Source of the DNA: a virus
Strand: one strand, 5' to 3'
Length of the DNA: 21,360 bases
Virus record (IMG/VR): IMGVR_UViG_3300035158_000295
Location: 1 to 21,360 of that record
The position numbers and the translations under genes are program-made. The notes beneath the pieces were generated by a model, which saw only the letters and a list, made by a program, of their open reading frames with translations, had not been told where the DNA came from and made no database searches. Below are positions 4,120 to 20,533 of the stretch, piece by piece (positions within the stretch are counted from its first letter, which is position 1; the number at the start of each line of letters is the position of its first letter).

Positions 4120-5027
4120 GCTTCGGCTCCAAAGAGCGTCATTTGCCTGTTCTTATGATGATGCTTCGGCAGAGTGCTGGGAAGCTGTTGTGAAAGTGTA
4201 GGGGAAAGGTACAGAGACTCTACGGTTACATCTTCACGTCCAAGTAAAGTTGCCTGCGATGAGCGTCCTGCATGAATCTCAACATGTGTTAGATTCAACT
4301 CGGAAGGCAGCAATTGTCCGTGTACTTTGCCCCCAGTTCGGCCATCATAGCTCACGATGTATCGGATGTCTCTCTGGTTCAACTCCTTCAGGGCTTCGAC
4401 GAACTCGCAGAACTGAACACCGGTAAGGTATCGTGAGTCACGATTTCTGCAGACCCCCTGATAGGGTGGGTCCATGTATACAAGGTCGCAAGGCTTCGCC
4501 TTGTGGATGATGTCATGATAATTCTTTGACGTAGTTCTTGTCTTTCCATTGAGAAGGCCAGAAGCACCAGAGATCATATTACGCATCGTACTCGGTCGTG
4601 CACCACAACGCCTATTGTCAGGACTTTGATTGAATTCTCCGTTGGCGTTATATCTGACAGAAGCTTTTACGCAACGGGCAAGAAGATATAGGAAGAAATC
4701 GGGTTTTCCGGTAAGGTTGAATTGATCGCGAATATTGTCATAGTATTCTCGCGGGTTGCTCTGTTGCTCGTGCCACAGATGGTTATACTTGCGCGAGATT
4801 GTTTCGGGGTGATTGATTATCTGTGCCCACAAATCCATGAGAGGCTTATTGAGATCATTAAGCCAGTAACGGTGTGCCAGCCCCCTTGCCGCAGCAGCTA
4901 TGGAAACGGCAGCTGAGCCAGCGAAGGGTTCAATCAGGGTTGCAACCCCATCTGGAAAGTAGTGAAGAATGTCGGCTGCGATATTCCGCTTGCTCCCTTG
5001 ATATGGTATCGGATGAGGAAGCTTCAT
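4116..5027 (-). CDS. DNA N6-adenine methyltransferase, Dam (D12 class)
   Basis: Encodes 303 residues from ATG 5027, with GAGAGGAAA upstream. Motif X-like PYQGSKRNIAADIL at residues 7-20, motif I EPFAGSAAVS around 35-44 (AdoMet site) and catalytic motif IV DPPY near 184 appear in the order of alpha-class (Dam, DpnM) methylases. It transfers a methyl group from S-adenosylmethionine to adenine in a specific DNA site; length fits the family. It sits between a ribbon-helix-helix regulator and a truncated HNH gene in one operon, which is the layout of a restriction-modification unit or a phage anti-restriction methylase. As the nuclease is broken, its present use is most likely self-protection of phage DNA. 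Confidence 0.92.
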   Translation of the reverse strand: MKLPHPIPYQGSKRNIAADILHYFPDGVATLIEPFAGSAAVSIAAAARGLAHRYWLNDLNKPLMDLWAQIINHPETISRKYNHLWHEQQSNPREYYDNIRDQFNLTGKPDFFLYLLARCVKASVRYNANGEFNQSPDNRRCGARPSTMRNMISGASGLLNGKTRTTSKNYHDIIHKAKPCDLVYMDPPYQGVCRNRDSRYLTGVQFCEFVEALKELNQRDIRYIVSYDGRTGGKVHGQLLPSELNLTHVEIHAGRSSQATLLGREDVTVESLYLSPTLSQQLPSTLPKHHHKNRQMTLFGAEA

Positions 5028-5029
5028 GA

Positions 5030-5206
5030 TTATTTCCTCTCTTTTGGCAAACGTACACGCACATCCCTGACAACCTTTGCAAGCAACGCGGCCACGAACT
5101 CCTGCATGGAGGTATCCTCGACGGCGCACTTGACGCGCAGGCGCTGATGCACGTCCTCCGGCAGTGCGATATGAATCTTGCGTTCCTTCGGTCGGTCGGT
5201 CCTCAT
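5030..5206 (-). CDS. Ribbon-helix-helix (Arc/CopG-like) protein
   Basis: Encodes 58 residues. The N-terminal KERKIHIALPEDVHQRLRVK has the strand-helix pattern of RHH proteins (IHIALPEDVH strand and turn), followed by a second helix EDTSMQEFVAALLAKVV. The start is ATG 5206, with GAGGGG seven bases upstream and a strong sigma70-type promoter (5240-5267) just before it. The stop at 5030-5032 is two bases before the methylase ATG, so they form an operon. It likely represses its own promoter and so controls the methylase; the promoter contains a partial dyad GGTATACTTTTACC. Base composition of this gene is visibly more GC-rich than its neighbours, pointing to transfer. Confidence 0.8.
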   Translation of the reverse strand: MRTDRPKERKIHIALPEDVHQRLRVKCAVEDTSMQEFVAALLAKVVRDVRVRLPKERK

Positions 5207-6651: not shown

Positions 6652-6727
6652 TGGAGCGGCCTACGGGACTCGAACCCGTACTTCCAGCATGGCAAGCTGA
6701 CGTGCTACCGTTGAACACTAAGGCCGC
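6652..6727 (-). tRNA. tRNA-Gly (GCC), copy 2
   Basis: Full cloverleaf with U73 and encoded CCA; the loop TTGCCAT gives GCC. Its 5' end lies five bases after the RNase P-like RNA. Confidence 0.94.
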
Positions 6728-6732
6728 GTTAT

Positions 6733-6826
6733 GTCAGGTGAACCGTAAGCCGGTTTCTGTCAGTAACCGGACTTTCCTCGTGCGGAGAAACAAGTTCCCC
6801 ACACGCGGTCGTCTTGTCCACCTGAC
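6733..6826 (-). ncRNA. Miniature RNase P-type RNA (catalytic core only)
   Basis: A 94-nt RNA with the hallmark RNase P elements in order. P1 is 8 bp (6819-6826 with 6733-6740). A P3-like hairpin of 11 bp follows (6795-6805 with 6779-6789). Next comes conserved region I, GAGGAAAGTCCGG (6767-6779), and conserved region V, ACAGAAACCGGCTTACGG (6742-6759). Together they form P4: AAG, a bulged U, CCGGTT paired with AACCGG-CTT, capped by ACTGACAGA. In ordinary bacterial RNase P RNA (about 350-400 nt) P2, P5-P18 and the specificity domain lie between these regions; here all are absent. It sits five bases upstream of tRNA-Gly in a tRNA array, so 5' maturation of pre-tRNA is the obvious role, in trans with RNase P protein or in cis. 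The sequence match is direct; activity is inference. Confidence 0.88.
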
Positions 6827-6952: not shown

Positions 6953-7030
6953 TGGTCAGGGTGAGAGGATTTGAACCTCCGACCTCACGGACCCGAACCG
7001 TGCGCTCTGGCCAAACTGAGCTACACCCTG
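6953..7030 (-). tRNA. tRNA-Pro (CGG)
   Basis: Full cloverleaf with encoded CCA; the loop TTCGGGT gives CGG. It has the same acceptor stem as tRNA-Pro (TGG). Confidence 0.95.
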
Positions 7031-7405
7031 TTATTCCTCTTTCATGAAATGCCTCTCAACAGCTTCGACGCACCTCTTTTCCATCTCCACGAATTCGTCG
7101 CTGTGATGGGCTGCGCTGTCGGGGTTGACCAAATGAGCCAACTCATGTCCTGCCACTTGCAAAACGCTTCCGACCTTCAACCTTTTCGTCCACCACTGCT
7201 GGCCTTCTCTGAACCTGAAGGCGACCGACACACGACCTTCATGCGTATAGCACACACCTTCTCGACCGCCCGGATATGGCCGACGCTTAGCCTCGAAAAC
7301 CCTCATGGGCAATCCAAGTTCCTTCGCGGCCTCGAACGTCGCTTTGCCAACTTCCACCACAAGAGAACGGTCATCTTCATGTGCATGGCTTGCGTCAATT
7401 TTCAT
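7031..7405 (-). CDS. Zinc metallopeptidase-like protein (HExxH, WLM/SprT-like)
   Basis: Encodes 124 residues. AGHELAHLVNPDSAAHHSDEF, at about residues 86-106, contains HELAH, with a later His-Ser-Asp-Glu-Phe that fits the third zinc ligand of WLM/SprT-type peptidases (HExxH...H). The protein is short for a full peptidase, with no signal peptide, so a cytosolic role is likely. In cells this group acts on DNA-protein crosslinks; the phage role is unknown. Its ATG overlaps the end of the SLOG gene by 11 bases, indicating one operon. The TAA stop is directly at the 5' end of tRNA-Pro. Confidence 0.8.
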   Translation of the reverse strand: MKIDASHAHEDDRSLVVEVGKATFEAAKELGLPMRVFEAKRRPYPGGREGVCYTHEGRVSVAFRFREGQQWWTKRLKVGSVLQVAGHELAHLVNPDSAAHHSDEFVEMEKRCVEAVERHFMKEE

Positions 7406-11369: not shown

Positions 11370-11790
11370 CGCCATGTCCTCGCCGGACATACCCCTAACC
11401 GATTCAGCACGACGAAGCGCAAGATTACCCGATTCCATGTGTCACGTCCTTTCGATATTGTCCAAGAATATGGTGGAGGTGGACGGATTTGAACCGTCGT
11501 CCCGTAATGTCTCAGAAGAAGCGTCTACGTGTGTAGTCCCGTGATTCGGAGGTATGAACTCTCCACGGCTCATCGAGACAAACCGTTGAGCGTCTTTGTG
11601 CGCCGATACGTCTCTGGCGTTTAGGCATCACTCGTTCCATATCTGTCTTTCCAGAAGTCCGTCGTCTTTCCGACCGTCAGCCTTAGTATGGACGCTACTA
11701 ACAGTTACCAAGACAATCTCACTGCGTTCACGGGAGCCTGTTTAGGCTGCCATACGAACTTCGTTGGCACTTATAGTGCATGGTCGATTT

Positions 11791-19672: not shown

Positions 19673-20533
19673 TTACACCCTCGTGATATTGATGACTTGC
19701 AACGCATACGGGTTGTACGCGCCGATGCCAAGGTTCTCGAAGATGGAGAAACCAATCAAGCGGTTCTTCGGGTCGTCAGCCGACAGGACGGTCAACTCTG
19801 TACGAACAGGAATCCTACCGAAGAATTCCGGCTCACCACAGACGTAGACAGTACCTTCGGTGACCACGCGGGATGTGATGATGTTCGCACCCCACACTTT
19901 ACCCATAAGGCCGGTCTTGAGCAATCTGGCTTGAGTTTCGATGTCAAAAGTGTCGCGGTCCCACTTACGCATGTCCGCGAAATCCTTGGCGTTCATGAAC
20001 ACATTCGCCACACGCATGTCGGTGCGCTCAACGTTTGCGAACGCATCGGCCAAGCTGTTTGCTGTCAGGTTACCCGTCACCGGGATTGCCGGGTTGGGGT
20101 TGCTGGCATCAGCGGCCATAGCATCCATGACTGCGAACACCTTGCGGTCTTCCTCGGCCTGAGTCTCAGACTTGGCGAGGTCCACACTACGCTCGATGAG
20201 GTCAAACCGACGAGCCTTGATTTCCGTCAACTGGATTTCAGGGTTCGATGCGATTTCAAAGAGCGGGAACAGCACTCTCTTGGGCTTTGCGACCGCGACA
20301 ATGTTTTCGCCCTCTTCACCAACCACGTAGGCGGTGATATTCGGGTCCTTGTCGTAAATCGGAAGTGCGCCATCAGGAAGCTGTTCCACGTAGAACGCCT
20401 TGCGTCCTACGGAAGCGTAATCCCTGCGCCGTCTGAGAGGCTGAATCATACTGGCCGCAAGACGCTGCCGTCCGGCTGCGGTCTTGATGTGGTCGCTGAT
20501 AATCTGCTGCTTGGTCTGATTGTCAACTGCCAT
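19673..20533 (-). CDS. Major capsid protein (HK97-fold-like)
   Basis: Encodes 286 residues from ATG 20533 with AGGAGG eight bases upstream. The order of segments is that of a phage coat protein: a helical N-arm (KQQIISDHIKTAAGRQRLAA), an E-loop-like DGALPIYDKDPNITAYVVGE, the spine-helix part ERSVDLAKSETQAEEDRKVF, then a P-domain VANVFMNAKDFADMRKWDRD, LLKTGLMGKVWGANIITSRV and a closing strand LGIGAYNPYALQVINITRV. The RTELTVLSADDPKN region and the YNP(Y/N)A end are typical of coat proteins in several Firmicutes and marine phages. It assembles the icosahedral head. It is preceded by two other structural-type genes with near-identical leaders and followed by a strong terminator. Confidence 0.8.
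   Translation of the reverse strand: MAVDNQTKQQIISDHIKTAAGRQRLAASMIQPLRRRRDYASVGRKAFYVEQLPDGALPIYDKDPNITAYVVGEEGENIVAVAKPKRVLFPLFEIASNPEIQLTEIKARRFDLIERSVDLAKSETQAEEDRKVFAVMDAMAADASNPNPAIPVTGNLTANSLADAFANVERTDMRVANVFMNAKDFADMRKWDRDTFDIETQARLLKTGLMGKVWGANIITSRVVTEGTVYVCGEPEFFGRIPVRTELTVLSADDPKNRLIGFSIFENLGIGAYNPYALQVINITRV

Follow-up and report, generated by a model that had tools for sequence, protein, structure and literature searches.

A 94-nt derivative of RNase P RNA in a phage tRNA array, and what appears to be a family of phage-encoded RNase P RNAs

How much of a ribonuclease P (RNase P) RNA can be taken away, and what is it that then remains? The question is raised by a 94-nucleotide (nt) RNA encoded within the tRNA array of IMG/VR virus record IMGVR_UViG_3300035158_000295, a linear 21,360-bp fragment that was analyzed over its complete length and is referred to here as the window. 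A reading made from the sequence alone (the sequence-only reading) had placed a miniature RNase P-type RNA at positions 6733–6826 and described it as a stripped catalytic core serving the phage tRNAs. The coordinates proved right, and the RNA is that of the minus strand (5′ end at 6826, 3′ end at 6733). It is homologous to RNase P RNA, and is filed here as a derivative rather than a member, since it fails some of the defining features that were tested (P2, J5/15, P15/L15 and the Rfam score). As argued below, it is probably the descendant, through a single internal deletion, of a family of phage RNase P RNAs, and is unlikely to cut tRNAs alone.

The minus strand of the 94-nt RNA folds at −46.2 kcal/mol, compared to −28.1 ± 3.4 kcal/mol for shuffled versions (z = −5.25; 0 of 200 shuffles as good), whereas the plus strand of the locus reaches a z of only −2.5. 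Its minimum free energy (MFE) structure consists of P1, a P3-like hairpin and P4 with a bulged U, and all coordinates that follow are on the minus strand. P1 closes both ends of the molecule, as in Rfam family RF00010, with a 5′ strand GUCAGGUGGAC (6816–6826) paired to a 3′ strand GUUCACCUGAC (6733–6743) over 11 bp that include one G-U, not the 8 bp first proposed. It is followed by an unpaired ACGACCG (6806–6812), whose place matches the P2 5′ strand (P2a, NNNNUCG) of the longer phage RNAs described below, and by the P3 hairpin (6779–6805; 11 bp, loop CUUGU). CR-I, GAGGAAAGU (6771–6779), carries every base that is invariant there in the family, and the bulged U of P4 is its base 6771. P4 itself is formed by AAG(U)CCGGU (6766–6774) and ACCGGCUU (6747–6754), and has 8 bp because it is closed by a U-A pair; its 11-nt loop, UACUGACAGAA (6755–6765), contains the CR-V motif ACAGAA. 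The elements occur in the same order as in the relatives, i.e., P1, the P2 5′ strand and P3, with P1 resuming a few nt past CR-V, as in the family locus L177.

Covariance-model searches bear out the resemblance to RNase P RNA. RF00010 (class A, rnpB), which shares CR-I, CR-V, P1, P3 and P4 with its bulged U, aligns from end to end in cmscan (6825–6730, minus strand), with almost everything between CR-I and CR-V deleted. The E-value is 6.8e-4 in a 251-nt search and 1.7e-8 for the record, although the score of 26.3 bits does not reach the RF00010 gathering score of 100. A second model (R2), built from the outer core (CR-I, P4 and CR-V) of ten relatives with the window excluded, finds 6779–6734 (minus strand) at 30.5 bits (E = 1.1e-6), with a runner-up at 5.9 bits. 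All 12 of the family-invariant bases in the 33-nt core are retained, as are the bases of CR-I and CR-V that are universal in bacterial RNase P RNA. P4 pairs at 8 of 8 positions, and a loop-closing pair of its U-A type is seen in none of 23 relatives; both sides of this pair have therefore changed together. With a descriptor that requires CR-I, CR-V and full pairing of P4, there is one match in the window and none in 24 Mb of first-order random sequence.

The miniature stands alone in the data searched. A looser descriptor run on 2.9 million viral contigs of IMG/VR gave 42 matches to the letters, the best of which paired 5 of 7 P4 positions (7 of 7 in the window), and blastn with the 94-mer found no match among phages. 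A search of viral and genome contigs for the exact CR-I/CR-V pair at short spacing produced nothing real; four matches look like coding sequence. Thus, these descriptor and motif searches left the 94-nt RNA as the sole representative of its kind.

What it has lost can be stated with some precision. RF00010 class A has 367 model positions, and the 94-nt RNA lacks P2, P5 to P18, J5/15, L15 and the specificity (S) domain; the absence of the S domain and L15 had been correctly noted, along with the RNase P derivation, the phage context and the tRNA array. Relative to the phage family, it is the outer frame minus P5 through the P2 3′ strand. The missing part is one block, running from right after the P4 5′ strand to right before the 5-nt CR-V linker, and it covers P5, P6, P7, P15–P17, J18/2 and the P2 3′ strand; in the alignment, the long forms would carry this insert at what is here the P4 loop (6755–6765). 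The P2 5′ strand is left unpaired, and with no complement to ACGACCG before CR-V, neither P2 nor the P2/P4 pseudoknot can form. P5, J5/15, P15/L15 (GGU) and J18/2 are likewise absent, and are deleted in the RF00010 alignment. The metal-binding site of P4 is retained. A middle-domain model (R1) and near-exact searches found no middle domain anywhere in the 21-kb window; that of the family, GCUNAAGGNNGGAG...GAGGAUGCAAC...GGUGAGC...AUAAAUGA, was not found there, and GGTCGTC, the complement of the orphan P2 strand, turns up elsewhere in the window no more often than chance predicts.

The longer relatives were reached through the window’s capsid protein, with which a search gave 80 viral loci (the major head protein is encoded at 20533–19673, minus strand). 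RF00010, applied to 48 of the contigs of these capsid relatives, gave matches in only two, G002 and G004, both below threshold. Ranked by capsid protein, these two stand closest among the tRNA-rich relatives (91% and 89%); they have 30 and 32 tRNAs, respectively, and their RNAs are ~190 nt long. From these RNAs the search reached the 735-kb phage LR756501, and two degenerate patterns then brought the set to about 24 distinct RNAs, mostly of 180–290 nt. In LR756501, the RNA lies at 181546–181291 on the minus strand (L131, 2960–3215), and is followed by a terminator-like hairpin and a run of T. Of 84,980 prokaryote genomes searched, a single match was obtained (L180, 1425–1632, plus strand; contig JAJFLM010000324); the contig belongs to a metagenome-assembled deltaproteobacterial bin and is possibly a phage contig within it. 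Two further candidates were set aside: L138, a chance coding match, and H34, a weak 29-nt blast match in a Lactobacillus phage.

Family members that RF00010 detects all score below its gathering score, and several are missed altogether, which would explain why annotation has overlooked them. Phage RNase P RNAs were not described in the literature searched, which left preprints and most subscription papers outside it, so that earlier publication is possible; the text of the 735-kb phage genome paper does not mention RNase P. Together, these phage-encoded RNase P RNAs make up what is apparently an unreported family.

Covariation and conserved blocks identify the long forms as RNase P RNAs. P1, P2, P4, P6 and P7 all covary across the family. 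In 24 sequences, 100% of P4 cells are paired, compared to 22–47% in slid controls, and six of the eight pairs have changed on both sides. The middle-domain pairings (P7, the P8-like and P15–P17-like helices, and a P6-like pseudoknot) are formed in 95% of cells, and 15 of 22 pairs have changed on both sides. P1 and P2 strands also pair better with their own partners than with swapped ones (means of 9.2 vs. 6.4 and 6.9 vs. 5.6, respectively). The conserved blocks of the alignment are CR-I, CR-V, a J5/15-like CAAACAG, a GGU, and, behind the GGU, the block AGATAAATG, which we take to be J18/2, the assignments following the E. coli RNA. Compact members have only one short hairpin inside P7, and the S domain is therefore nearly gone. 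On the best explanation, the RNase P RNAs of the family are type A-like and their specificity domain is very small. The long forms (e.g., those of G002, G004, LR756501, L141 and L177) have in common with the 94-nt RNA the invariant core, P4, P1, P3 and a place in tRNA arrays. In contrast, P2, P6, P7, the P8-like and P15–P17-like helices, CAAACAG, GGU and AGATAAATG are kept by the long forms, and none of them by the RNA of the window.

Some members depart from the usual arrangement. In G002 (L083, ~728–917) and G004 (L084, ~1495–1685), both on the minus strand, the order is P3b-CR-I ... P2b-CR-V-P2a-P3a, with no P1. Here the partner of the P2 3′ strand, in a helix of 9 bp, lies downstream of CR-V and has the family UCG at its end; the letters that follow form P3, also of 9 bp, with the bases immediately 5′ of CR-I. 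Between the two sequences, the changes in these P2 and P3 helices are compensated. Judging from these two sequences, the RNAs appear to be circularly permuted, with the break in the P3 loop and the loss of P1. A rival to the permuted reading is an alternative helix of nine pairs, including G-U pairs, upstream of CR-I in G004. In another locus (L201 of G052, ~4200–5060, minus strand, which is the same as L139), the RNA is apparently split by ~640 nt carrying an open reading frame (ORF) for a GIY-YIG endonuclease, after which the remainder of the RNA follows with matching P4 and P1; the insertion had no intron match in Rfam.

The placement of these RNAs is also conserved. Within the sequence retrieved around them, 18 of the 24 family loci have from 4 to 25 tRNAs, which without exception share the strand of the RNase P RNA, and in seven (L083, L161, L164, L167, L174, L178 and L179), the RNA ends 3–6 nt before a tRNA on the same strand. 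The 94-nt RNA matches this placement, as its 3′ end is 5 nt from tRNA-Gly(GCC) (6652–6727, minus strand; CCA encoded; ARAGORN), a distance that had been given correctly, as had the number of tRNAs in the window (~25 by ARAGORN and Rfam, all on the minus strand). In L161/L172, L162, L174 and L084, the RNase P RNA starts 0–10 nt past the 3′ end of a tRNA, so that its 5′ end may come from tRNA 3′ processing. No RNase P RNA, long or miniature, was detected in the tRNA-rich phages G022 (28 tRNAs), LR745208 (32), Tunturi_5 (34) or phage G (17), which makes the link with tRNA arrays strong but not strict. RnpA was encoded in none of 30 phage records searched.

These observations suggest a sequence of events. 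The tRNA arrays of large phages would be transcribed together with a long-form RNase P RNA, which most likely pairs with host RnpA and matures the 5′ ends of phage tRNAs; a cut at the tRNA 3–6 nt downstream would also trim the 3′ end of the RNA itself. In the phage of the window, one internal stretch between the P4 5′ strand and the CR-V linker would have been lost, leaving P1, the orphan P2 5′ strand, P3, P4 and CR-V. Self-sufficient tRNA cleavage is not expected of this remainder, because P2, J5/15, P15/L15 and J18/2, which bind the substrate and make up the rest of the active site, are gone. Nor is catalysis expected of the RNA alone, because the catalytic (C) domain of the E. coli RNA shows no detectable activity without P15–17 (PMC5839562). 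The 94-nt RNA is thus probably not a ribozyme by itself.

Descent by a single deletion, with little prospect of unaided cleavage, draws on the matches to R2 and RF00010, the 12 invariant bases, the eight pairs of P4 and the order of elements. It also draws on the 3–6 nt spacing to a tRNA, the ~190-nt forms in G002 and G004, the absence of a middle domain from the window, the lack of a second miniature, the published loss of activity without P15–17, and the absence of RnpA from 30 records. Several points weigh on the other side. There are no signs of decay: the helices that remain are all intact, with P1 and P3 unusually regular, and this points to selection or to a very recent deletion. The 94-nt form is known from one sequence only, and beyond the 21 kb of this fragmentary record there could be a full-length copy or a second piece of RNA. 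The RNAs of G002 and G004, without P1 and apparently permuted, are not the deletion ancestor as they stand. Finally, so little sequence does not discriminate between a bacterial and a phage origin for the parent RNA. Within the deletion reading, there is little to choose between a drifting remnant and an RNA co-opted for protein binding; the intact helices argue against long neutral decay, and the singularity of the RNA argues against an old, stable function. The possibility raised at the outset of a decayed fragment of rnpB is borne out in part: the ~190-nt relatives largely establish a fragment of a longer RNA, but with invariant bases and remaining helices intact, it does not look decayed.

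The alternative that survives best, though unlikely, is that of a decoy or regulator, in which the non-catalytic frame would tie up host RnpA, or compete with host RNase P RNA, and so favor the processing of phage tRNAs. It would fit an outer frame that is intact and free of any mutation seen, while the substrate-binding parts are gone, and because the phage records lack RnpA, the family must use the host protein if any. However, there is a single example, and the contacts of bacterial RnpA include parts that are absent from the 94-nt RNA.

That the RNA is a working, smallest natural RNase P RNA, in a new family that includes permuted forms, is quite improbable, and could take one of two forms. 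In the first, which is doubtful, P1, P3 and P4 would form the core RNA of an RNase P rich in protein, and what the RNA has lost would be supplied by a protein of the host or the phage. In its favor, CR-I, CR-V and the metal site of P4 are fully intact, a P4 pair is compensated, the fold is strong and regular, and the RNA is kept in a tRNA array at the 3–6 nt spacing. An analogy exists in yeast mitochondria, where some of the much reduced RNase P RNAs (RPM1) consist of little besides P1 and P4 and need a large protein; these RNAs are organellar, AU-rich and longer than 94 nt. However, P2, P5, J5/15, P15/L15 and J18/2 are precisely what the long forms keep and the 94-nt RNA has lost, the E. coli C-domain is inactivated by deletion of P15–17 (as cited above), and no relative of such size was found. 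The proposal of a working stripped core is therefore not supported, although its other half, a partnership with host protein, is plausible for the family, given the absence of RnpA from the 30 records. The suggestion that the RNA acts in cis on tRNA-Gly gains no special support, as the long forms sit 3–6 nt from different tRNAs.

In the second form, which is very doubtful, the RNA would be split, with the middle domain and the P2 3′ strand made elsewhere in the genome and joined through P2. The orphan P2 5′ strand is still in its normal place, and the apparent permutation of the closest relatives implies that in this clade neither the ends nor the order of such RNAs is fixed; set against this are the empty R1 and near-exact searches of the 21-kb window, and the chance-level occurrence of GGTCGTC. 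The idea that the resemblance is due to chance, or that a hairpin of the tRNA array merely mimics RNase P RNA, could appeal to scores far below the Rfam gathering score, but is refuted by the existence of homologues, themselves in tRNA arrays. The E-values of two independent models, one of them built without the window, and the empty 24 Mb of random sequence also speak against it.

Comparison with known systems places the 94-nt RNA at an extreme. The smallest class of cellular prokaryotic RNase P RNA is type T, of Pyrobaculum and other Thermoproteaceae, an archaeal RNA of about 200 nt that keeps the catalytic domain and is active (PMC7191817, PMC4919922). The long phage forms are near type T in size, while the 94-nt RNA keeps far less; type T is defined by a complete catalytic domain without an S domain, and P2, P5 and P15 are absent here. 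Theta ribozymes, which resemble that of hepatitis delta virus (HDV), are also small structured RNAs found in the tRNA arrays of phages, where they take part in tRNA maturation (PMC10879173), but they are self-cleaving, adopt the HDV fold at tRNA 3′ ends, and are unrelated in structure to the 94-nt RNA; the window has two candidates. A phage-borne RNase P RNA would provide phages with their own copy of the near-universal ribozyme of 5′ maturation. Phages carry tRNAs, theta ribozymes and transfer-messenger RNA (tmRNA) as well. The family also amounts to a natural deletion series, with forms of ~180–290 nt, two of them apparently permuted and one apparently interrupted by the insertion of a homing endonuclease, plus one 94-nt derivative, and it allows one to ask how little RNA is needed by RNase P when protein is present.

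Other features of the tRNA array deserve brief description. Upstream of the 94-nt RNA, at a distance of 126 nt, is tRNA-Pro(CGG) (6953–7030, minus strand), and between the two sits a 15-bp hairpin, AGUGUUCUGAGCACU/AGUGCUUAGAGCACU (6945–6909, minus strand). The neighboring ORF at 7031–7405 had no relatives in the searches made. The first of the theta candidates, an RF02682 match (318–248, minus strand; 48.9 bits), begins 1 base past the 3′ end of tRNA-His, in agreement with the position described for such ribozymes (PMC10879173); the second (6399–6334, minus strand) scores 34.6 bits, below the gathering score, and comes immediately after tRNA-Cys. The 3′ part of a divergent tmRNA, missed by ARAGORN, lies at 11760–11471 (minus strand; 46.5 bits) and probably reaches further 5′ of 11760; tmRNAs are found within or near the tRNA arrays of the relatives too.
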